This document shows positions 3,149 to 15,588 of a DNA stretch of 37,656 nucleotides, one piece after another (the stretch's first letter is position 1; each line of letters starts with the position of its first letter). The stretch is from Nitrospirae bacterium GWC2_57_13 (GTDB lineage Bacteria > Nitrospirota > UBA9217): the NCBI GenBank assembly GCA_001805055.1, contig MHDZ01000017.1, positions 13,357 through 51,012 on the forward strand. The letters run 5' to 3'. The notes beneath the pieces were generated by a model. The model worked only from the letters and a program-made list of their open reading frames with translations. It ran no database searches and had not been told where the DNA came from. Position numbers and translations under genes: made by a program.

Positions 3149-4327
3149 ATGAGCAAAGATGGAAAAACACCGATGCTTGATGAATTGGAAAAAGGCGCAT
3201 GGCCGAGTTTCGTAAAAGAGATCAAGAAGGCCGCTGTCAAGAAGGACTCGGCAAAGGACCTTCTCGGCATTCTCGAAAGATCCTACAAGGACAAGATCGG
3301 CCACTGGAAGCACGGCGGCATCGTGGGCGTGCTCGGCTACGGCGGCGGCGTCATCGGCCGCTACTGCGACCTGCCTGAGGAATTCCCCGGCGTCGCTCAT
3401 TTCCACACCGTTCGTATCAACCAGACCGCCGGCTTCTTCTACACCTCCCAGGCGCTGCGCGAGCTCATGGATATCTGGGATGAGCATGGAAGCGGCCTGA
3501 CCAACTTCCACGGCTCCACGGGAGACATGGTCCTTCTGGGAACCACCACGGACCAGCTCGAGCCCATTTTCGCCAAGACCACGGCGAAGGGTTGGGACCT
3601 CGGCGGTTCCGGTTCCTGCCTCCGCACACCCAGCTGCTGCGTGGGCATGGCCCGCTGCGAATTTTCCAATATCGACGCCATGGACATCTGCGACAATCTT
3701 ACCCATGAGTTCCAGGACGAGCTTCATCGTCCCGCATTCCCCTACAAGTTCAAGATCAAAGTATCCGGCTGCGCCAATGACTGCACGGCTTCCATTGCCC
3801 GCGCCGACCTCTCGATCATCGGCACCTGGAGAGACACGATCCGTATCGACCAGGCCGAAGTGAAGATCGCAGCCAAGGACATGGACATCAAGACCGAAGT
3901 GACCGACATGTGCCCCACCCACTGCATGAGCTGGGACGGCAGCACGCTCAAGATCGCCGACAAGGACTGCAACCGCTGCATGCACTGCATCAACCGCATG
4001 CCCAAGGCCCTGCGTCCCGGCAAGGAAAAAGGCGCGACCATCCTGCTCGGCGGCAAGGCCCCGATCGTGACCGGCGCGCTGATGAGCTGGGTCATCGTTC
4101 CCTTTGTGAAGCTTGAGAAGCCCTATGACAATCTCAAAGACCTCATCCGCAAGCTCTGGGAGTGGTGGGACGATCACGGCAAGAACCGCGAGCGCATCGG
4201 CGAACTCGTTGACCGCATGGGGATGAAGTCCATGCTCGAAGCAACCGGTCTGCCGCCCGTGCCGCAGATGGTGAAAGCTCCGAGAACGAACCCCTATGTG
4301 TTCTGGAATCCTGAAGACGTGAAATAA
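3149..4327 (+). CDS. dsrA: Dissimilatory sulfite reductase alpha subunit
   Basis: '[75 protein letters not shown]' siroheme/[4Fe-4S] motif and ferredoxin motif '[34 protein letters not shown]'; RBS aaggagg. Confidence 0.97.
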
Positions 4328-4354: not shown

Positions 4355-5428
4355 ATGGCTGACAAACCGAAAAGAATAACAGACATTGGAGCGCCTCATT
4401 ACAGCAAATTTCTCCCTCCCGTGATCGCCAAGAACTACGGGAAGTGGAAGTATCATGACATGATCAATAAGGGCGTGATGAAGCACGTGTCCGAGACGGG
4501 CGACGAGCTCTACACGGTCCGCATCGCAACGCCGCGCCTTGTGAGCACCGACTACATCCGCGAGATGTGCGACGTGGCCGAGAAGTTCAGCGGCGGGCAC
4601 CTGCGCTGGACAACGCGGCATAACATCGAGTTCTTCCCGGCCAAGGACCAGGTTGATCCGCTCCAGGCCGAGCTGAAGAAGCGCGGCCACATGGTCGGCG
4701 GCATCGGCTACGGCATCAGCAACGTGGTGCATACCCAGGGCTGGATCCACTGCCATACGCCGGCAACGGACGCATCGGGAGTTGTGAAGGCAGTCATGGA
4801 CGAACTGCATGAGTACTTCACGACCAAGTCCCTGCCCGCCCGGGTCAGGATCGCGCTGGCCTGCTGCCTCAATATGTGCGGGGCCGTGCATTGCTCCGAC
4901 ATCGCCATCCTCGGCGTTCACCGCAAGCCGCCCCGGGTTCTCGATGCCACGCTGGCGAACCAGTGCGAGATCCCCACGACGATCGCTTCCTGCCCCACGG
5001 GCGCCATCAGCCCGAACCCGGCAATGAAGTCCGTGAAGATCAAGGAAGAGCGCTGCATGTACTGCGGCAACTGCTACACCATGTGCCCGTCCCTGCCCCT
5101 TGCCGACGCGACGGGCGGCGGCATCTCCATCTGGGTGGGCGGCAAGGTGTCGAACGCCCGCGGCGTGCCCCGGATGTCCAAGCTGGCCATCCCGTTCCTT
5201 CCGAACAATCCGCCCCGGTGGCCCGAGGTCGTTAAGGCCGTGAAGCACCTGGTGGAAGTTTATGCCAAGGATGCGCGCAAGCACGAGCGCATGGGTGAGT
5301 GGATCGAGCGGGTCGGCTGGGAGCGGTTCTTCAAGCTGACCGGACTGCCCTTCACCTATCAGCACATCGACGATTTCACCTTTGCCCGTGAGACGTTCCG
5401 CATGACCCCCACCTTCAAGTGGGAGTAG
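4355..5428 (+). CDS. dsrB: Dissimilatory sulfite reductase beta subunit
   Basis: '[27 protein letters not shown]' and '[37 protein letters not shown]'; directly follows dsrA with RBS gaggag. Confidence 0.97.
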
Positions 5429-5517: not shown

Positions 5518-5748
5518 ATGGACGCTGCGGAACTGCAGAAAAAGATATACGACATGGTAGAAAAGAGCCAGGGCAAAAAGAAGCTGAAGCCCGGGGACAT
5601 CACGAAGGCGATGGAAGCCGAAGGCGCAGAAAAGGCTGATATCAAAGCGGCGCTTCGTGAGCTGATAGACGGAGGCAGGCTGGTGTATTCGTACTTCGGC
5701 GGCACTGCCGTCGAGATCCCCCATAAGGAAGGTTCGGCAAATCCCTGA
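5518..5748 (+). CDS. dsrD: DsrD, dissimilatory sulfite reductase activator (winged helix)
   Basis: ~76 aa 'MDAAELQKKIYDMVEKSQGKKKLKPGDITKAMEAEGAEKADIKAALRELIDGGRLVYSYFGGTAVEIP'; position after dsrAB; RBS gagagg. Confidence 0.9.
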   Translation: MDAAELQKKIYDMVEKSQGKKKLKPGDITKAMEAEGAEKADIKAALRELIDGGRLVYSYFGGTAVEIPHKEGSANP

Positions 5749-7142
5749 TGCGACGGATCCCGAGGGTGGTGTTTTCGGCCGTCCGCGGAGGGTCGGGGAA
5801 GACGATCATTTCCATCGGGGTCGCCGTTGCCTGGCGGAAGCACGGCAGGCGGATCGGCGTTTTCAAAAAAGGTCCTGACTTCATCGATGCCGGGTGGCTC
5901 GGCGCAGCAGCCGGCAGCGACTGTTATAACCTCGATCTCTTTCTGATGGAGCCCAGCGCGATCCTCCGTTCCTTTGCGGAACATACCATGGGGGTCGACG
6001 CAGCAGTGATCGAGGGGAACCGGGGGCTCTTCGATGGGTTGGACGATGCGGGCACGTACAGTACCGCCCGCCTCGCCCGCCTCCTCGCTGCCCCGGTTGT
6101 TCTTATCATAGATTGCACCAAGGTCACGGCGACCGTTGCCGCCCTGGTGCTCGGATGCCGTGATTTCGATCCTGCTGTGAGCCTTCAAGGTGTGATCCTG
6201 AACCGCGTCGCCTCAGGCCGGCAGGAATCGGTGATCCGGAAGGCCGTGGAAGGGGCCACGGGAATACCTGTTGTAGGCGCAGTCCCGCGGCTGCGGCAGG
6301 AGGAGTTCCCGGAACGACACATGGGGCTTACCCCCTTCCAGGAGCATCCTGAAGTCAACCAGGCGATCGCGGCAGCTGGAGCGATGGCGGAAAAATATAT
6401 CGATCTGGACGCTCTTTGGAATATCGCATCAGAAGCGCCTGACGTGGAAGCGCCCGAGGCCCTCATCGGGCAGGGCCCCCGGGGCGATTCGTTCGTAAGG
6501 GTCGGCATCATCCAGGACCGGGCCTTTCAGTTCTATTATCCCGACAACCTGGAAGCGCTCAGAAAGCAGGGCGCCGAACTGGTGCAGCTCAACGCGTTGA
6601 GCGATGCCGCGCTTCCCGGGATCGACGCCCTGTATATCGGCGGCGGTTTTCCTGAAACACAGGCCGCGGAACTGGCTGCGAACGACAAATTCTGCGCGTC
6701 GCTCAGAGCAGCAGTAGAACGCGGGCTTCCGGTCTACGCGGAGTGCGGAGGCCTCATTTACCTCGGCAGAAGCCTGCAGGTCGACGGCAAGACCTATCCC
6801 ATGGCGTCAGTGCTGCCGGCGGATTTTGTGCTCGAAAAGAGACCGCAGGCGCATGGGTATACCGTACTCGAAGCAGGTGAGAATCCCTTCTTCCCTGTTG
6901 GCACCGTGCTGAAGGGTCATGAGTTTCATTATTCCCGGATCGCGAATCATGACGAGCTTTCGGGAATGGGGCTGCGGATGCAGCGCGGCGTTGGCATCGA
7001 CGGCAAAAACGACGGCTTGGTTTATAAGAATGTGCTGGCCGCCTATACCCATCTTCATGCCCTCGGCGCACCGGCCTGGGCAGAGGGTATCGTGCGAAAA
7101 GCGCGGGAGTACAGGAAGAGAGCAGGGCAGGAGGCAGGGTGA
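5748..7142 (+). CDS. dsrN: DsrN, cobyrinic acid a,c-diamide synthase family (siroheme amidation)
   Basis: 'GGSGKTIISIGVAVAWRKHGRRIGVFKKGPDFIDAGW' P-loop and 'LPVYAECGGLIYLGRSL' glutaminase motif (CobB/CbiA-like); TGATG overlap with dsrD. Confidence 0.92.
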   Translation: MRRIPRVVFSAVRGGSGKTIISIGVAVAWRKHGRRIGVFKKGPDFIDAGWLGAAAGSDCYNLDLFLMEPSAILRSFAEHTMGVDAAVIEGNRGLFDGLDDAGTYSTARLARLLAAPVVLIIDCTKVTATVAALVLGCRDFDPAVSLQGVILNRVASGRQESVIRKAVEGATGIPVVGAVPRLRQEEFPERHMGLTPFQEHPEVNQAIAAAGAMAEKYIDLDALWNIASEAPDVEAPEALIGQGPRGDSFVRVGIIQDRAFQFYYPDNLEALRKQGAELVQLNALSDAALPGIDALYIGGGFPETQAAELAANDKFCASLRAAVERGLPVYAECGGLIYLGRSLQVDGKTYPMASVLPADFVLEKRPQAHGYTVLEAGENPFFPVGTVLKGHEFHYSRIANHDELSGMGLRMQRGVGIDGKNDGLVYKNVLAAYTHLHALGAPAWAEGIVRKAREYRKRAGQEAG

Positions 7143-7501
7143 GCACGGAGTCACGGCAAGGCAAAGGAGTCTACTGTCCGTTCTGTTCCAGTCCGCTCGC
7201 GCGGCCCAGGCCGATCCAGGCCGGGGTCGGCGCCACGGTAGACGGCGGCGCGTGCTCCTGCGGGGCGCGTTATCTGACGGATCCCACGGGTAAGAACGTG
7301 GGCGAGTTGATGCTGCAGGCGCTCACCATGATGGGGGAGGCCCTGTCGCGGGGCCCCTTTGATCTGGCTCAGGGTGTTGATTACGATGAGGTCATCTTGA
7401 GCTATGATTGGAGAATGCATCGTTCTCTCGGCGAGCCCGAGGGCTACATGGACGGACACGGCAGGCTCTATATGTTCCGCGAGAGAAAAAATACACCCTG
7501 A
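7139..7501 (+). CDS. Small zinc-ribbon-like protein embedded in the dsr locus
   Basis: GTG start overlapping the dsrN stop (GTGA); 'CPFCSSPL...GACSCGARYLTDPTGKNVGELMLQALTMMGEAL'. Confidence 0.75.
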   Translation: MSTESRQGKGVYCPFCSSPLARPRPIQAGVGATVDGGACSCGARYLTDPTGKNVGELMLQALTMMGEALSRGPFDLAQGVDYDEVILSYDWRMHRSLGEPEGYMDGHGRLYMFRERKNTP

Positions 7502-7615
7502 TCAGAGCGGCGAGGGAAGTCTTCAGAAGCGCTGCGCAGGGAAGACAGATGTTCGGGAAATTGAGACTCGTGAAGAGTGTATCAATTATCAATTCAATGA
7601 AAGGGGTACAAAACA

Positions 7616-7951
7616 ATGGCAATGGTTGATGTCAAAGGGAAGTCAATCGAAGTGGATGAGGACGGCTTTCTGGCCAACCTCGATGACTGGAGCATGGACG
7701 TGGCGAACTATTTCGCCGAGGTCGAGGGGATCGATATGTCCGACCAGCACTGGGAAGTCGTGAATTTTCTGCGCGAGTATTACAAGCAGTACCAGATCGC
7801 GCCGATGATCAAGATCCTGGTGAAGGAGATCGGCAAGAAGCTCGGCCCCGACAAGGGCAACACCAAGTACCTCTATGAGCTGTATCCGGGCGGACCGGCA
7901 AAGCAGGCCTGCAAGATCGCGGGTCTTCCGAAGCCGACAGGCTGCGTGTAA
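7616..7951 (+). CDS. dsrC: DsrC, sulfur-carrier / sulfite reductase substrate protein
   Basis: C-terminal arm 'QACKIAGLPKPTGCV' with two Cys separated by 10 residues; 'LGPDKGNTKYLYELYPGGPAKQACKIAGLP'. Confidence 0.96.
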   Translation: MAMVDVKGKSIEVDEDGFLANLDDWSMDVANYFAEVEGIDMSDQHWEVVNFLREYYKQYQIAPMIKILVKEIGKKLGPDKGNTKYLYELYPGGPAKQACKIAGLPKPTGCV

Positions 7952-8097
7952 GACATCGCACGCCACGGGCCGCATTTTGCCGCCCGGGCGAATTCGCCGC
8001 TGGAGCACTTTTGCAGACCTCCGGTACCGATGGGCGGGGAAGGTTAAGCCGGCATCGGCTTCGGGGCTGCAAGGGCGGCATCCATACAGGGCGAAGG

Positions 8098-8133
8098 CAG
8101 GGGATAGTTGAGAGATTATCCCCTGTTTTTTTA
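8098..8133 (+). terminator. Intrinsic terminator after dsrC
   Basis: CAGGGGATA-gttgagagat-TATCCCCTG-TTTTTTT. Confidence 0.88.
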
Positions 8134-8165
8134 TCTACCAGACATCTCCAGGGAGGTGATTTATT

Positions 8166-8465
8166 ATGAAGCTGGCCGTGTTTCTGAGCGACTGGGATCG
8201 GACCGAAGCGACCCTCGAAAGACTGAAGGCTGATAAGATGGGCGTCATTCTTGTCGGCAACGGCATCTATCATGCCGTGCTGAAGGCCGGGGGCAAGGAC
8301 TCACCGGTGCTCTCCACAGCGGGCGCGAGCTTTTACGCGCTGGCCGACGACCTTGAGACGCGCGGGTTTACCGCGGCGAACGTGAATTCCAAGGTCAAGG
8401 TCGTGAGCTACGGCGATATTGTCGACTTGATCATGAAGGACTACGAAAAGACCGCGTGGCTGTAA
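8166..8465 (+). CDS. DsrH/TusB-like protein
   Basis: ~99 aa; 'FYALADDLETRGFTA' and C-terminal 'TAWL' resemble TusB/DsrH ('..QAWL' type ending). No Cys in the translation. Confidence 0.75.
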   Translation: MKLAVFLSDWDRTEATLERLKADKMGVILVGNGIYHAVLKAGGKDSPVLSTAGASFYALADDLETRGFTAANVNSKVKVVSYGDIVDLIMKDYEKTAWL

Positions 8466-8567
8466 CTGTTCGAAGGATGAGGGACGAGGGAAGAAGATGC
8501 ATCCGTCGTCCGAGCGAGACGCGCGCGACCATCTCTCGTCCATCGATTTTTAAAAAAGGAGGATACC

Positions 8568-8927
8568 ATGGGAGAATTGACCTTAGGTGTTTTCCCCTCG
8601 CTCGTCGGTTCCATGACGCTTGATTTTTCCTTCAGGCTTGCGGATGCGGCGATGGAGAAGGGGCACAAGGTGAACATGTGGCTGTCCGGGAACGCGGTCA
8701 TGATGGCCAAGAAGGGCCAGAAGGCGTTCAAGGATTACTCGCATAATGAAAAAAAGATGAAGGAACTGATGGGCAAGGGGATGGAGATAACCGTGTGTGA
8801 GGCCTGTGCCGAGGCGCGGGGCTACCACAAGGAAGACACGCCGGAGGGAATGAAGCGGGCCAGCATGGACTGGTATCTGGCGAAGACCGTCAAGACCGAC
8901 CGGCTGCTCCATATAGGAGGTGAGTAA
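8568..8927 (+). CDS. DsrE/TusD-like sulfurtransferase
   Basis: 'MEITVCEACAEARGY' at the expected catalytic Cys position and C-terminal 'KTDRLLHIGGE' resembling DsrE '..ADRLVVFGD'. Confidence 0.8.
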   Translation: MGELTLGVFPSLVGSMTLDFSFRLADAAMEKGHKVNMWLSGNAVMMAKKGQKAFKDYSHNEKKMKELMGKGMEITVCEACAEARGYHKEDTPEGMKRASMDWYLAKTVKTDRLLHIGGE

Positions 8928-9340
8928 TGGCTGCTGTTAATCTGCTGTTCGTGGTACAAAGGCCGCCGTATAAGAGCGAGAATGCCCGCCTTGCGCTGAC
9001 CCACGCCATCGCGAGCCAGACGGCCGAGATCTATATGGATGACGGCGATTCCGTGGTGCCCATCGTTGCCTTTGTGGGAGACGGGGTGCTGAACGCCGTG
9101 AAGGGCCAGAAGGCCATGGAGCGCTACGGCGTGACAAGCACGGAAATGCATATCAAGAGCAGCCTGATGATCGATATGCCCATCTGGGTCTGCAAGGAAG
9201 ACATGGAGCGGCTGGGGCTCAAGGAAGATCAGATGATCACCCATGCCGAAGAGCTCGGCGCCGACCTCAAGACGAAGTTCGTGTCTTTCGCCGAGATCCA
9301 GAAGGAGATGGAAGGGACGAACCATCTTCTCTTCTTCTAG
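8927..9340 (+). CDS. DsrF/TusC-like protein
   Basis: DsrE/F-fold; 'WVCKEDMERLGLKEDQMI' and C-terminal 'TNHLLFF'; starts at the stop of the DsrE-like gene. Confidence 0.75.
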   Translation: MAAVNLLFVVQRPPYKSENARLALTHAIASQTAEIYMDDGDSVVPIVAFVGDGVLNAVKGQKAMERYGVTSTEMHIKSSLMIDMPIWVCKEDMERLGLKEDQMITHAEELGADLKTKFVSFAEIQKEMEGTNHLLFF

Positions 9341-9348
9341 AACACCCT

Positions 9349-9378
9349 ACCCTGCAGCAGCGGCTGCAGGGTTTTTCT
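9349..9378 (+). terminator. Intrinsic terminator after the DsrF-like gene
   Basis: Perfect 10-bp stem ACCCTGCAGC-agcg-GCTGCAGGGT followed by TTTTCTTT. Confidence 0.88.
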
Positions 9379-9424
9379 TTGGATGCCGGCCGTAAGCGGC
9401 CGCAGGGAGAGCGCAATTCCGGAT

Positions 9425-9937
9425 ATGGACCTGAACGCATTGCTGAAAGAGAAACAGCCCGCCATCGTCGAAAAATGGTTCGAAACGGTCCTGGCGGCCT
9501 ATCCGGAAAATACCGCCAATATATACCGGAAGTCGGAGGCCCAGTTCACGAACCCCTTGGGCTACAACGCCCGGCAAGGGGTGGAAGGCCTCTTCGATGC
9601 GCTCCTGAAGGGCGTCATGCTTGAGGAAGCTTCGGGCTTTCTCGATAACATCGTGCGGATCCGGGCGATCCAGGAATTCCCGCCCTCCCAGGCCCTTTCA
9701 TTCATCTATGAGCTCAAGAAGATCGTACGCGCTGAGATCGGCAAAGCCGTTGCCGAGCAGGGTCTGACGGAGGATCTCGATTCCTTCCTGTCGACCATTG
9801 ACGACCTGGCCCTCTTTGCGTTCGATCTTTATATGGGATGCCGCGAAAAGCTCTTCGAGATCAAGGTGAATGAAATGAAGAACAGCACCTTCCGGCTGAT
9901 CCAGCAGGCGAACAGGGTCGGCGGAAAGCAGGAATGA
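9425..9937 (+). CDS. RsbRD N-terminal (globin-like sensor) domain protein
   Basis: 'LLKEKQPAIVEKWFETVLAAYPENTANIY...QFTNPLGYNARQGVEGLFDALL...ASGFLDNIVRIRAIQEFPPSQALSFIYELKKIVR'. Confidence 0.75.
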   Translation: MDLNALLKEKQPAIVEKWFETVLAAYPENTANIYRKSEAQFTNPLGYNARQGVEGLFDALLKGVMLEEASGFLDNIVRIRAIQEFPPSQALSFIYELKKIVRAEIGKAVAEQGLTEDLDSFLSTIDDLALFAFDLYMGCREKLFEIKVNEMKNSTFRLIQQANRVGGKQE

Positions 9938-9989: not shown

Positions 9990-10985
9990 ATGAAAGTTCT
10001 CGTGTCCTTTTTTGCAGTGCTCGTCCTTGCCTTGGTCGCCTACGCAGGAGTGGAGGCGGCAAATCTGCAGTATCTGTTCGGGGTCATCATCCCCTACGCG
10101 GCCTTTGTGACCTTCCTTGCCGGTGTGGTGTTCCGCATCCTGAAGTGGGGGTCATCACCCGTTCCCTTCCGGATCCCGACCACCTGCGGGCAGCAGAAGA
10201 CCCTTCCCTGGATCAAATCAAGCAAGCTCGAAAATCCATCGGGATTGCTCGGCGTGATCGCCAGAATGGCGTTGGAAGTGCTCTTCTTCCGCTCCCTCTT
10301 CCGGAACCTCAGGACGCAGTTGAGCGACGGTCCGCGTCTCGCCTACGGAGAGGCAAAATGGCTCTGGCTAGCGGGTCTGGCCTTTCACTGGTCTTTCCTG
10401 ATCATTCTGCTCCGGCACCTCCGGTTCTTCATGGAAAAGGTCCCCCTGCCGATCACGATGATCGAGGCACTCGACAGCTTTCTCCAGCTCGGCGCGCCGC
10501 TCCTGTACATGACCGATGTGGTGCTTCTGCTGGCCGTCACGTATCTCTTCATCAGGCGGGTCGGCATCCCGCAGCTCCGGTACATATCGCTCATCAATGA
10601 TTACTTCCCGCTCTTCCTGATCCTCGGCATCGCCGTGACAGGCGTACTGATGCGGTATTTCTTCAAGGTGGACGTGGTGGGTGCGAAGATGCTGGCCATG
10701 AGCCTGATCAGCCTGAAGCCCGCGCTTCCTGAGGTCCAGATCGGTGCGCTCTTCTATACCCACCTGTTCCTCCTGAGCGTGCTCTTCGCCTATTTCCCCT
10801 TCAGCAAGCTCACGCACATGGCAGGCGTCTTCCTGAGCCCCACGCGGAACATGGCGAACAACAGCCGTGCGAAGCGGCATGTCAATCCCTGGAACTACCC
10901 GGTCCATGTTCATACGTACCAGGAGTATGAGGACGACTTCAGGGAAAAAATGAAAGGCGCCGGGCTGCCGGTAGAAAAGGAGTAG
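9990..10985 (+). CDS. dsrM: DsrM, NarI-like cytochrome b membrane subunit
   Basis: Multi-TM with His-containing helices ('GLAFHWSFLIILLRHLRFF', 'FYTHLFLLSVLFAYFPFSKLTHMAGVFLSPTRNM'); first gene of dsrMKJOP order. Confidence 0.92.
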   Translation: MKVLVSFFAVLVLALVAYAGVEAANLQYLFGVIIPYAAFVTFLAGVVFRILKWGSSPVPFRIPTTCGQQKTLPWIKSSKLENPSGLLGVIARMALEVLFFRSLFRNLRTQLSDGPRLAYGEAKWLWLAGLAFHWSFLIILLRHLRFFMEKVPLPITMIEALDSFLQLGAPLLYMTDVVLLLAVTYLFIRRVGIPQLRYISLINDYFPLFLILGIAVTGVLMRYFFKVDVVGAKMLAMSLISLKPALPEVQIGALFYTHLFLLSVLFAYFPFSKLTHMAGVFLSPTRNMANNSRAKRHVNPWNYPVHVHTYQEYEDDFREKMKGAGLPVEKE

Positions 10986-10987
10986 AC

Positions 10988-12607
10988 ATGGCTAAACTTC
11001 CGAATCCCGAAGAATTGTCCAAGATTGATTACGCTCCGCCTTCCAAGGGGTGGATGGACACGCCCACGGAGTTCAAGCCGGGCATGTTCTGCCATGGGTC
11101 AAAGCCCAAGAGCCTGGAGACCCTGGAATTCCCGAACCCCCGGGAGTGGCGGCCTGCCGACGTTGACTGGAAACTGCCCGAGAACTGGAAGCAGATCCTG
11201 CTGGAAGGCATTGCCGACCGGCTCAAGAAATACCGCTCATTCCGGCTCTTCATGGATATCTGCGTACGCTGCGGCGCCTGCGCCGATAAGTGCCACTTCT
11301 TCATCGGCACGGGTGATCCCAAGAACATGCCGGTGCTGCGGGCTGAGCTGATCCGCTCCGTCTATCGCAAGGAATTCACCATAGCCGGAAAGATCTTCGG
11401 CAAGATGGCCGGAGCGCGCGAGCTCACCGTTGATGTGCTGAAGGAATGGTGGTACTACTTCTTCCAGTGCACGGAGTGCCGCCGCTGCTCGGTCTTCTGC
11501 CCCTACGGCATCGACCAGGCTGAGATCACGATCATCGGCCGGGAGCTTTTGAACCTGCTCGGGCTGAACATCGAATGGATCGCCGGTCCTGCGGCGAACT
11601 GCTACATGAAGGGGAACCATCTCGGCCTCGAGCCCCACACCATTGTGGGCAACCTCGAATATATTCTTGATGACATCGAAACCGTGACAGGCAAGAAGAT
11701 CAAACCGACCTTCAACCGGAAGGGCGCGGAGATCCTCTTTGTCACCCCCTCGGGCGACCTGTTCGCTGATCCTGGCACCTATACCGCCATGGGCTACCTC
11801 ATGCTGTTCGAAGAGCTGGGCCTCGATTATACCTGGAGCACCTACGCTTCCGAAGGCGGCAACTTCGGTTTCTTCACGACCAATGAACTGGCAAAGCGGC
11901 TGAATTCCAAGATCTATGCCGAAGCAAAGCGGCTGGGCGTAAAATACATCATCGGCGGCGAGTGCGGCCATATGTGGCGCGTCATCCATCAGTACATGGA
12001 CACCTGGAACGGTCCAGCCGACTTCCTCGAAGTGCCCAAATCACCGATCACCGGAACGGTCTTCGAGAATGCAAAGGCCTCGAAGATGATCCATATCGCC
12101 GAATTCACGGCCGACCTGATGAAGAACGGCAAGCTGAAGCTCGATCCGAGCCGGAACGACCATCTTAAGGTGACATGGCACGACTCGTGCAACACTGCGC
12201 GCGGCATGGGTATCCTTGAAGAACCCCGCTATGTGCTGAAGAACGTGGTGAACCACTTCCACGAGATGCCCGAGGACACCATTCGGGAGAAGACCTTCTG
12301 CTGCGGCAGCGGTTCGGGCCTGAATGCCTCGGAGGACATGGACCTCAGAATGAAGGGCGGCTTCCCCCGGGCCAACGCGGTGAAGTTCGTGCACGACCAC
12401 TACGGTGTGAACATGCTCGCCAACATCTGCGCCATCGACCGTGCGTCGCTTCCGCCCCTGATGGACTACTGGGTCCCGGGTGTGAAGGTCGCCGGCCTGC
12501 ATGAGCTGGTGGCGAATGCGCTGATCATGAAGGGAGAAAAGGAACGGACGACGGACCTGCGCGGTGAACCCCTTCCGGGCAAGGAACAGAAGGAGGAATC
12601 GGCATGA
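10988..12607 (+). CDS. dsrK: DsrK, HdrD-like Fe-S protein with CCG motif
   Basis: 'CVRCGACADKCHFF', 'CTECRRCSVFCPYGID', 'FCCGSGSG'. Confidence 0.95.
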   Translation: MAKLPNPEELSKIDYAPPSKGWMDTPTEFKPGMFCHGSKPKSLETLEFPNPREWRPADVDWKLPENWKQILLEGIADRLKKYRSFRLFMDICVRCGACADKCHFFIGTGDPKNMPVLRAELIRSVYRKEFTIAGKIFGKMAGARELTVDVLKEWWYYFFQCTECRRCSVFCPYGIDQAEITIIGRELLNLLGLNIEWIAGPAANCYMKGNHLGLEPHTIVGNLEYILDDIETVTGKKIKPTFNRKGAEILFVTPSGDLFADPGTYTAMGYLMLFEELGLDYTWSTYASEGGNFGFFTTNELAKRLNSKIYAEAKRLGVKYIIGGECGHMWRVIHQYMDTWNGPADFLEVPKSPITGTVFENAKASKMIHIAEFTADLMKNGKLKLDPSRNDHLKVTWHDSCNTARGMGILEEPRYVLKNVVNHFHEMPEDTIREKTFCCGSGSGLNASEDMDLRMKGGFPRANAVKFVHDHYGVNMLANICAIDRASLPPLMDYWVPGVKVAGLHELVANALIMKGEKERTTDLRGEPLPGKEQKEESA

Positions 12608-13029
12608 GATTGTATAACGGAGGCCTGATCATTACGGGGATCGTCGTGTTCCTGGCACTGGCGACATTTCCGTTCTATTACAATATCGGCAAGGCAAATG
12701 CCAAGCCCGATATCAAGCTCGAGCCTGCCATCAAGATGAGCGAGGAGCGCTATGGCAAGAAGCAGTGCGTCGAGCCGAAGGAGTGGATACGCCGGGAGCA
12801 CATGGTGCTTCTGAACCACTGGCGCGACGCTGTGGTTCGCGATGAGAACCGCGGGTACCTCAGCACGGACACCGGCACCCGGTTCAATATGAGCCTGCAG
12901 AACGAGTGCATGCAGTGCCATTCGAGCAAGAAGAACTTCTGCGACCAGTGCCATAATTACATGGCGGTAAAGCCCTTCTGCTGGGACTGCCATATCGCAC
13001 CGACGGAAAAGGAGGAGGCGAGATCATGA
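12604..13029 (+). CDS. dsrJ: DsrJ, triheme cytochrome c
   Basis: Three CXXCH motifs (CMQCH, CDQCH, CWDCH), N-terminal TM helix, conserved 'KKQCVEPKEWIRREHM'. Confidence 0.95.
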   Translation: MRLYNGGLIITGIVVFLALATFPFYYNIGKANAKPDIKLEPAIKMSEERYGKKQCVEPKEWIRREHMVLLNHWRDAVVRDENRGYLSTDTGTRFNMSLQNECMQCHSSKKNFCDQCHNYMAVKPFCWDCHIAPTEKEEARS

Positions 13030-13871
13030 GCATGAAGAGGAGAGACTTTCTGAAGATCGCCGGCATATCCTCCATCCTTAGCGTGGGGGCCAAGATAGCC
13101 GAAGCGACCCATCCTGCCTGGGTCACCGGTCCGGACCCCAAGCAGCTGGTGCCCAACAAGCAGGCGCTGTCTGCAAAGCGGTGGGCCATGATCGTGGATA
13201 TGACAAAGTTCAAGACCGAGGCGGACACGCTGAAGGTCATCGATGCCTGCCACCGGGCGCACAATGTGCCGGATTTCCGGACGCCCGATGGGAAGGTGGA
13301 CAAGAAGCTCGAGGTCAAGTGGATATGGCAGGCCGGGTTCGAGCGCGCCTTCCCGGGCCAGGACAACAAGTACATGAGCGAGCATCTCAAGGATATGCCG
13401 TTCATGGTCCTCTGCAATCACTGCGACAATCCGCCCTGCGTACGTGTCTGCCCCACGCAGGCGACCTACAAGCTGAAGAACGGCATCACGATGCAGGATA
13501 TGCACCGCTGCATCGGCTGCCGATTCTGCATGGCCGGCTGCCCCTATGGCGCCCGGAGCTTCAACTGGGTCGACCCCCGGAAAGCCGCCAATCTGGATGT
13601 CAAGAGGGGCGGCAAGCTGAACAACGAATATCCCCAGCGGACCAAGGGCGTTGTGGAGAAGTGCACCTTCTGCACTGAACGGCTCCAAATCGGAAAGATG
13701 CCGGCATGCGTCGAGGCGGCCCCCAAGGGCGCCCTGCTCTTCGGCGACCTGGAAGACCAGAACTCGGAGATACGCAAGATCATTACGACCAGGTACACCA
13801 TCAGGCGCAAGCCCGATCTGGGCACAGGGCCGGCTATCTACTATCTCATAGGAGGAAGCGACCATGCTTGA
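13026..13871 (+). CDS. dsrO: DsrO, periplasmic ferredoxin-like subunit with Tat signal
   Basis: 'MKRRDFLKIAGISS' twin-Arg; 'CNHCDNPPCVRVCPTQATY', 'CIGCRFCMAGCPYGARSFNW'. Confidence 0.94.
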   Translation: MSMKRRDFLKIAGISSILSVGAKIAEATHPAWVTGPDPKQLVPNKQALSAKRWAMIVDMTKFKTEADTLKVIDACHRAHNVPDFRTPDGKVDKKLEVKWIWQAGFERAFPGQDNKYMSEHLKDMPFMVLCNHCDNPPCVRVCPTQATYKLKNGITMQDMHRCIGCRFCMAGCPYGARSFNWVDPRKAANLDVKRGGKLNNEYPQRTKGVVEKCTFCTERLQIGKMPACVEAAPKGALLFGDLEDQNSEIRKIITTRYTIRRKPDLGTGPAIYYLIGGSDHA

Positions 13872-15030
13872 GAAAGCGCTTGAGGGAAGTAAAAAATACT
13901 GGGCATGGCTCATCCTTCTCAGTGCCCTGGCTTCCGTGGGATTCTACTTCTATCTCCAGCAGTATGCATACGGCCTGGGGCTTACAGGAATGCACCGCGA
14001 CGTTTCCTGGGGGCTCTATATCGGCCAGTTCACGTTCCTTGTCGGCGTTGCCGCCTCGGCCGTGATGCTCGTGATCCCGTACTATCTGCATGATTTCAAA
14101 AAGTTCGGGAAGATCGTGATCCTGGGCGAGTTCCTGGCCATCGCGGCCGTGCTGATGTGCATGCTGTTCATCATGGCCGATATGGGCCAGCCGGGGCGGT
14201 TCATGAACATCATGCTGCATCCCTCGCCGCAATCGGTCATGTTCTGGGACTTTCTCGTGCTCGCGGGCTATCTTGCGCTGAACGCCGTGATCGGCTGGGT
14301 GACCCTCGGCGCGGACCGGAAAGGCATGCCTCCACCCACGTGGATCAAGCCCTTCATCTACCTTTCGATCCCCTGGGCCATCAGCATCCATACGGTCACG
14401 GCTTTCCTGTACGCGGGCCTTCCGGGCCGGCACTTCTGGCTCACCGCCATCATGGCTGCGCGGTTCCTGGCCTCGGCCTTTGCCGGGGGCCCGGCGCTGC
14501 TGCTGATGCTGGCGCTGATCGTGCGGAAGCTGACCAAGTTCGACCCCGGCAAGGAGCCCATCCAGGCCCTGGCAAAGATCGTCACCTATGCCATGTTCGC
14601 CAATGTCTTCTTCCTTGCACTGGAGTTCTTTACGGCCTTCTACAGCCAGATTCCGGGACACATGCATGCCTTTGACCACCTCTATGCGCACAGCGCAACG
14701 CCGCTTGTGCCCATGATGTGGGTTTCCACGGCCTTCGCCCTGATCTCACTGGGGATGCTGTTCTTCCCGGCGATCAGAAAGAACGAGACAACCCTGGTTA
14801 TGGCCTGCATCATGCTGTTCACGTCGCTCTGGATCGATAAGGGCTTCGGCCTGGTGATCGGCGGATTCGTGCCGAATCCTTTCGACGAAGTGCATGAGTA
14901 CTGGCCTACCCTCCCCGAGGGTATAATAACTGTCGGCATCTGGGCCATCGGTTTCCTGGTCCTGACCATGCTCTACAAGGTGGCCATATCGGTGAGGGAG
15001 CAGACAGCAGGGGTCGAGATCGATCACTAA
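13864..15030 (+). CDS. dsrP: DsrP, NrfD-family integral membrane subunit
   Basis: ~10 TM NrfD-like protein, final gene of dsrMKJOP, overlaps dsrO. Confidence 0.93.
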   Translation: MLEKALEGSKKYWAWLILLSALASVGFYFYLQQYAYGLGLTGMHRDVSWGLYIGQFTFLVGVAASAVMLVIPYYLHDFKKFGKIVILGEFLAIAAVLMCMLFIMADMGQPGRFMNIMLHPSPQSVMFWDFLVLAGYLALNAVIGWVTLGADRKGMPPPTWIKPFIYLSIPWAISIHTVTAFLYAGLPGRHFWLTAIMAARFLASAFAGGPALLLMLALIVRKLTKFDPGKEPIQALAKIVTYAMFANVFFLALEFFTAFYSQIPGHMHAFDHLYAHSATPLVPMMWVSTAFALISLGMLFFPAIRKNETTLVMACIMLFTSLWIDKGFGLVIGGFVPNPFDEVHEYWPTLPEGIITVGIWAIGFLVLTMLYKVAISVREQTAGVEIDH

Positions 15031-15345: not shown

Positions 15346-15531
15346 ATGTACATGGTAACCATAGACAATGGCAAGTGTGACGGTGACGGAACCTGTGCGA
15401 ACCTTTGCCCGCAGGCCGTTTTCGCAATCGAAGGCGGAAAGGCCGATCCGGTCAACATGTCCGAGTGCATCAATTGTTTGACCTGCGTTGAGAACTGCCC
15501 GCAGAACGCGATCACCATTACCGAGATGTAA
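15346..15531 (+). CDS. 2x[4Fe-4S] ferredoxin
   Basis: 'CDGDGTCANLCPQAVF' and 'CINCLTCVENCPQNAITI'; RBS aaggagg. Confidence 0.9.
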   Translation: MYMVTIDNGKCDGDGTCANLCPQAVFAIEGGKADPVNMSECINCLTCVENCPQNAITITEM

Positions 15532-15561
15532 GTTTCTGCAGGACTGAATCGATATCATACG

Positions 15562-15588
15562 CCGGGGCAGCTGCCCCGGTTTTTTTTG
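15562..15588 (+). terminator. Intrinsic terminator after the ferredoxin gene
   Basis: CCGGGGCAGCTGCCCCGG palindrome followed by T8. Confidence 0.85.

Follow-up and report, generated by a model that had tools for sequence, protein, structure and literature searches.

A putative type II DsrEFH gene trio between dsrC and dsrT in the dsr operon of a Nitrospirota family

The closest described relatives of the genes considered here belong to DsrEFH type II, which was reported in 2026 from 985 genomes, mainly of Desulfobacterota and Nitrospirota, with a subtype 1 found mostly in Nitrospirota (PMC13293266). In that account 73.9% of the type II genomes carry reductive dsrAB, type II shares less than 30% concatenated identity with type I, and its type II HMMs are applied with a bit score above 80. 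In the same account the type II proteins of a cable bacterium were found in vitro to pass sulfur from TusA to Cys67 of DsrE and on to DsrC, one-way into DsrC, and DsrC gave no sulfur to type II DsrEFH; Cys67 of E. aureum DsrE corresponds to the active-site Cys78 of A. vinosum, and synteny with tusA and yeeE/yedE was described as typical of bacterial type II but not as a requirement. The YTD genes (yedE, tusA, dsrE and conserved hypothetical proteins) have been discussed as candidates for a role in disproportionation (PMC12998232), and other genomes holding both dsrD and dsrEFH have been reported (PMC11406059, PMC10591310). The standard dsr operon of Nitrospirae runs dsrABDN-C-T-MKJOP; in Nitrospirae such as Thermodesulfovibrio the dsrT of this order, flanked by dsrC and dsrM, is an RsbRD_N-type gene (PMC5812927). 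Here we analyse a 37,656-nucleotide stretch of the Nitrospirae bacterium GWC2_57_13 genome (hereafter the window; G000:C17:13357-51012, from a 3.32-Mb assembly that is 95.7% complete), in which three genes related to dsrH, dsrE and dsrF lie inside such an operon.

The dsr genes of the window are all on the plus strand, in the order dsrA-B-D-N-orfX-C-H-E-F-T-M-K-J-O-P, with a ferredoxin gene after dsrP, and their nearest relatives are found in Nitrospirota metagenome-assembled genomes (MAGs) such as GWC2_57_9. All genes of the canonical Nitrospirota operon are present in the same order, but H-E-F has been inserted between dsrC and dsrT, where relatives also carry a ferredoxin gene (compare PMC5812927). 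A preliminary description of the window had placed dsrD and a DsrH/E/F-like module on one strand of one locus, in the order C-H-E-F, and both the gene order and the coordinates are correct. Judged from its sequence and context, the trio fits DsrEFH type II (the YTD cluster) in every feature open to testing, with tusA/yeeE synteny as the one exception, and its arrangement appears to be new.

Classification of the H-E-F trio

The three genes and the neighbouring dsrC were assigned as follows.

7616..7951, plus strand: dsrC (TIGR03342 164.7 bits, PF04358 159.1 bits)
8166..8465, plus strand: dsrH, predicted type II (PF04077 42.7 bits, cut-off 24.4; TIGR03011 TusB/DsrH 46.9 bits, under the cut-off of 49.2)
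8568..8927, plus strand: dsrE, predicted type II, with a CxxC motif (PF02635 50.9 bits)
8927..9340, plus strand: dsrF, predicted type II (PF02635 33.8 bits; TusC/DsrF TIGR03010 E 9e-7)

The stop codon of dsrE and the start codon of dsrF share a base (TAATG). Family models and profile comparison alike identify the three contiguous genes as homologues of DsrH, DsrE and DsrF, so that the model search proposed in the preliminary description places them within these families (PF04077, PF02635, TIGR03010). Alignment with hhalign to type I profiles from the families labelled f4, f6 and f3 gave probabilities of 97.2 for DsrE, 96.5 for DsrF and 95.9 for DsrH at 22-25% identity, which confirms homology to type I. 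Concatenated identity to two f4 type I sets is nevertheless 25.6-27.3% (23-33% for single subunits), below the 30% expected of type II and far from the type I sequences that mark sulfur oxidation, whereas it reaches 55-62% (52-68% per subunit) against modules of other Nitrospirota families. Compared with the A. vinosum structure 2HY5, 20 of 72 aligned residues are identical in E and 26 of 79 in H; the AlphaFold model of DsrF, with a mean pLDDT of 57, was left out of fold comparisons. Cys77 of the DsrE CxxC motif aligns with the sulfur-carrying active-site cysteine of A. vinosum DsrE. This residue is retained, as are DsrE Cys80 and DsrF Cys89, by 24 of 24 relatives, whereas the window dsrH, aligned with 2HY5 DsrH, encodes no cysteine.

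Could the trio instead be a type I, oxidative-marker DsrEFH acquired by a sulfate reducer, giving a mixed or transitional locus as in SAR324, Actinomycetota and f4? Genomes with such a mixture of dsrD and dsrEFH do exist (PMC11406059), f4 loci carry a type I EFH set 5' of dsrAB-D-L, and the window shares homologous subunits and the DsrE active-site cysteine with Allochromatium type I and oxidative dsr operons. The Allochromatium genes, however, are ordered E-F-H, the window H has lost its cysteine and no dsrL was found in the genome; together with the low identity to type I and the high identity to H-E-F-tusA modules, these differences make an acquired type I set very improbable. A second alternative, that the trio is a TusBCD-like relay for tRNA 2-thiolation which lies in the dsr operon by chance, starts from the fact that TusB, TusC and TusD belong to the same superfamily, and that TusBCD of E. 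coli acts with TusA and the DsrC-like TusE. None of H, E and F reached a TusB/C/D equivalog cut-off, the neighbouring DsrC scores 128.7 bits on the TusE model against a cut-off of 191 and retains both C-terminal cysteines (Cys99 and Cys110; C-terminal sequence KQACKIAGLPKPTGCV), and modules of this kind stand beside dsr genes in 12 loci of other families as well. We therefore hold a tRNA-thiolation relay to be extremely unlikely.

The window trio agrees with the described type II systems in being a three-gene unit with the DsrE active-site cysteine, in its distance from type I, in sharing a genome with reductive dsrAB and in having a tusA partner in sister families; it differs from them in lying inside the dsr operon, between dsrC and dsrT, with tusA beside yeeE on another contig (compare PMC13293266). 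The gene set of the YTD cluster (PMC12998232) is likewise shared, but the window genome splits HEF, in the dsr operon, from tusA-yeeE. Several points weigh against the type II assignment and the relay derived from it. No tusA adjoins the window H-E-F, and the tusA and yeeE/yedE synteny typical of type II is absent from the locus; the gene of this genome most closely related to the module's tusA precedes yeeE on contig C12. An alignment of Nitrospirota DsrE found no strong match in the sampled Desulfobulbales, Desulfacinum and Desulforamulus genomes, and the link to the biochemically tested subtype is therefore drawn through the statement in PMC13293266 that subtype 1 is mostly Nitrospirota, and through the tusA synteny of sister families.

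The preliminary description had treated dsrD and dsrEFH as markers of opposed pathways. A reading of their combination as paradoxical or new is not supported, since the trio appears to be type II, a form that occurs mainly with reductive dsrAB (PMC13293266), and not the oxidative type I; numerous other Nitrospirota moreover have the H-E-F-tusA module, in many cases next to their dsr genes. The puzzle of opposite markers thus dissolves, which matters because dsrEFH is still used to mark sulfur oxidisers.

Direction markers and the proposed sulfur relay

Three genes at the 5' end of the operon bear on the direction of the pathway.

3149..4327, plus strand: dsrA, predicted reductive-type dissimilatory sulfite reductase alpha (TIGR02064 561.7 bits, cut-off 392.85; DsrAB tree)
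4355..5428, plus strand: dsrB, dissimilatory sulfite reductase beta (TIGR02066 496.1 bits, cut-off 341.5; DsrAB tree)
5518..5748, plus strand: dsrD, assigned by position and homology (PF08679 18.0 bits, under the 24.2 cut-off)

In a tree of 82 concatenated DsrAB sequences, obtained by a quick search and containing one long branch, the window DsrAB grouped with five members of its own family, here called f1, with a support of 100. This group fell within Nitrospirota together with a Thermodesulfovibrio MAG and Ca. Magnetomicrobium, and apart from the f3 and f6 sequences, which come with dsrL and without dsrD. By its sequence the window DsrAB is of the reductive type, as the phylogeny suggested in the preliminary description was meant to decide, and the trio thus co-occurs with reductive-type dsrAB, as is usual for type II. 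Reductive-clade DsrAB and dsrD together point to a reductive dsr operon, although dsrD, directly 3' of dsrB, is the weakest assignment of the operon; its product matches proteins at the DsrD position in other Nitrospirota, Desulfobacca and Acidobacteriota loci with E values of 1e-13 to 1e-38.

The genome also encodes sat (386.6 bits), aprA (918 bits) and qmoC (427 bits), identified by profile models, while aprB, qmoA and qmoB were assigned by position only, in the same cluster on contig C8. With these positional assignments the set for dissimilatory sulfate reduction (sat, aprAB, qmoABC, dsrC, dsrMKJOP) is complete; sat, aprAB and qmoABC are among the genes that the preliminary description proposed to look for. 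Its observation that dsrL is missing from the window was confirmed and extends to the 95.7%-complete genome, where this marker of oxidative rDSR was not found either. The three Fer4_20 proteins of the genome were considered as DsrL and rejected: they are GltD (the glutamate-synthase small subunit), an FlpD-fused flavoprotein and a GXGXG-GltD fusion, and differ in architecture and similarity from the DsrL of f3, f4, f6 and Acidobacteriota loci. Mixed operons do occur in f4, where four loci (L196, L197, L199, L202) differ from the window in that type I dsrE-F-H precedes dsrAB, and dsrD and dsrL come after it. One f6 genome (G006) has two different oxidative-like dsrAB sets (L198 and L201), each near its own dsrL-like gene.

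We consider it probable that H-E-F is a type II sulfur transferase and relays sulfur to DsrC. By analogy with the cable-bacterium proteins, transfer in the window organism would run from TusA to DsrE to DsrC. The position of H-E-F inside the reductive-type dsr operon suggests that DsrC is co-expressed with its donor. The chain would start from persulfidated TusA, the closest gene to the module's tusA being found elsewhere in the genome beside yeeE, pass through a persulfide on DsrE Cys77 to a persulfide or trisulfide on DsrC Cys110, and from there the DsrC-bound sulfur would enter the DsrAB/DsrMKJOP pool. By way of such a relay, zero-valent or imported sulfur might enter the pathway of a sulfate reducer and be oxidised or disproportionated under permitting conditions; whether it indeed runs in this oxidative or disproportionating direction we regard as evenly balanced. 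The opposite flow, in which a DsrC trisulfide or persulfide would give up its sulfur to TusA for biosynthesis or storage, would suit the mainly reductive pathway for which dsrD, the complete sat/apr/qmo set and the failure to find dsrL argue. It seems improbable, as in vitro the type II transfer was one-way toward DsrC and DsrC was no donor (PMC13293266).

The sulfur-relay step feeding DsrC that the preliminary description had proposed was accordingly right in outline, given that homologous type II proteins do this in vitro, but it is not new. Relative to the part of PMC13293266 drawn on here, in which the relay itself is already known, the additions are the in-operon position, the lost tusA linkage and a conserved hairpin. 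The gene order places DsrC next to the complex proposed to supply it with sulfur, and would offer independent genomic support for a TusA-DsrE-DsrC relay in sulfate reducers.

Arrangement in family f1 and the hairpin upstream of dsrH

The phylum was sampled with 396 genomes, 178 of which had DsrH matches, a count that includes other DsrH relatives, and 178 strong dsrB matches. Flanking DNA was compared for 23 modules outside f1, from about 15 families. The order was H-E-F in all 23, and tusA lay directly 3' of F in 22, the exception being L188, which has no tusA. The module stands beside dsr genes in 12 of these loci: in nine it faces the operon's 3' end in convergent orientation, in L187 and L188 it immediately precedes dsrAB and is co-oriented with it, and in L246 it comes after dsrP and the ferredoxin gene, again co-oriented. 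The dsr operons of L006, L007 and L035 run from dsrC to dsrT without HEF and the module is found elsewhere in the genome or beyond dsrP, as it is in the L008 and L021 genomes; no strong E homologue was found in Nbg-4 (L029).

In f1 the trio lies between dsrC and dsrT, without tusA, in all 12 genomes with an intact contig (the window, L002-L005, L194, L251-L254 and the truncated L255 and L256), and a dsrT-like gene follows F in every f1 locus that reaches beyond F. As for the other two of the 14 f1 genomes, the contig of G076 ends within dsrB, and G080, which is 74% complete, yielded no dsrB. Chance and faulty binning can be dismissed as sources of the C-H-E-F order, which 12 of 12 f1 genomes with an intact contig share. 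The preliminary description had stated that its case would be refuted if the combination were routine across the clade, and in f1 it is; among the Nitrospirota families compared, only the position between dsrC and dsrT is peculiar to f1.

Terminator-like hairpins were found at the following positions.

8099..8132, plus strand: hairpin AGGGGATAGTTGAGAGATTATCCCCT followed by poly-T, its end 33 nt 5' of the start codon of H
9349..9372, plus strand: second hairpin, after dsrF, with 10 pairs and a T-tract
15561-15580: hairpin after the ferredoxin gene (hairpin scan)

The hairpin before H has the form AGGGGATAGTTGA(n)TCCCCT plus seven T in 12 of 12 f1 loci, at a distance of about 25-45 nt from the start of H, and its 5' arm GGGGATAGTTGA is invariant. 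A pattern search over the 14 f1 genomes returned exactly one copy in each of 12, always upstream of H, and a reversed-pattern control over the f1 genomes gave 0 matches. The evidence for this element is its conservation and uniqueness and not covariation, because six sequences contained no compensatory change. A promoter-like site at 8139-8167 was discarded, as it extends into the start codon of H and sites of this kind are about as frequent as chance would give. Because there is scant promoter room between the hairpin and H, read-through attenuation would be the simplest reading, and the hairpin may tune expression of HEF-T-MKJOP relative to ABDN-C. A larger proposal, that in f1 a relay behind a family-specific attenuator makes DsrC loading transcript-regulated and lets the operon switch reductive DsrAB toward oxidation or disproportionation without DsrL, appears doubtful to us. 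As a single-copy conserved element, the hairpin offers a testable handle on relay expression. Of the other f1 loci examined, none showed the hairpin after dsrF in the interval from F to rsbRD.

Other genes of the window and a second DsrEFH-like set

The remaining genes of the operon are listed here.

5748..7142, plus strand: dsrN, cobyrinic acid a,c-diamide synthase family (TIGR00379 415.9 bits, NF002204 424.7 bits)
7139..7501, plus strand: orfX, small protein between dsrN and dsrC (no Pfam or NCBIfam match)
9383..9937, plus strand: dsrT-like gene, RsbRD_N-domain protein at the dsrT position (PF14361 66.3 bits)
9990..10985, plus strand: dsrM (NF038037 542.8 bits)
10988..12607, plus strand: dsrK (NF045796 731.6 bits)
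12604..13029, plus strand: dsrJ (NF038038 168.5 bits)
13026..13871, plus strand: dsrO (NF045797 278.1 bits)
13864..15030, plus strand: dsrP (NF045798 479.3 bits)
15346..15531, plus strand: 2[4Fe-4S] ferredoxin (Pfam Fer4, two stretches)

The ferredoxin gene, which follows dsrP in the window, lies between dsrC and H in the other f1 genomes, and some have both copies (loci beyond the window: L002-L005, L194, L251-L256); its product, associated with the dsr operon, is a candidate electron carrier. Homologues of orfX occur in f1 and several other Nitrospirota loci (L002-L007, L029, L035, L051, L190), and Desulfobulbales loci have weaker ones close to dsrN, encoded on the other strand. An OsmC-family protein is encoded at 1420-1884 on the minus strand, upstream of the dsr operon. 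At G000:C89:10457-11652, matches to the YeeE/YedE family are broken by in-frame stops, possibly a decayed copy beside two open ones.

The genome also holds a second, divergent DsrEFH-like set, on the minus strand of contig C61 (L163:7607-11043). It comprises an arsR regulator, DsrE, a UGA-containing DsrE, DsrF-like and DsrH-like proteins, an SQR-like FAD oxidoreductase and a DrsE_2 protein. It was considered as type I DsrEFH and rejected, being a third, divergent kind of set with a UGA in DsrE. This in-frame UGA falls exactly at the active-site cysteine (KVYL-U-GGC) and is conserved in six Nitrospirota genomes, with a hairpin-prone stretch 3' of it and a tRNA-Sec present. DsrE-like UxxC selenoproteins are known (PMC1088965), and the cluster context of this UGA-containing DsrE may be new.

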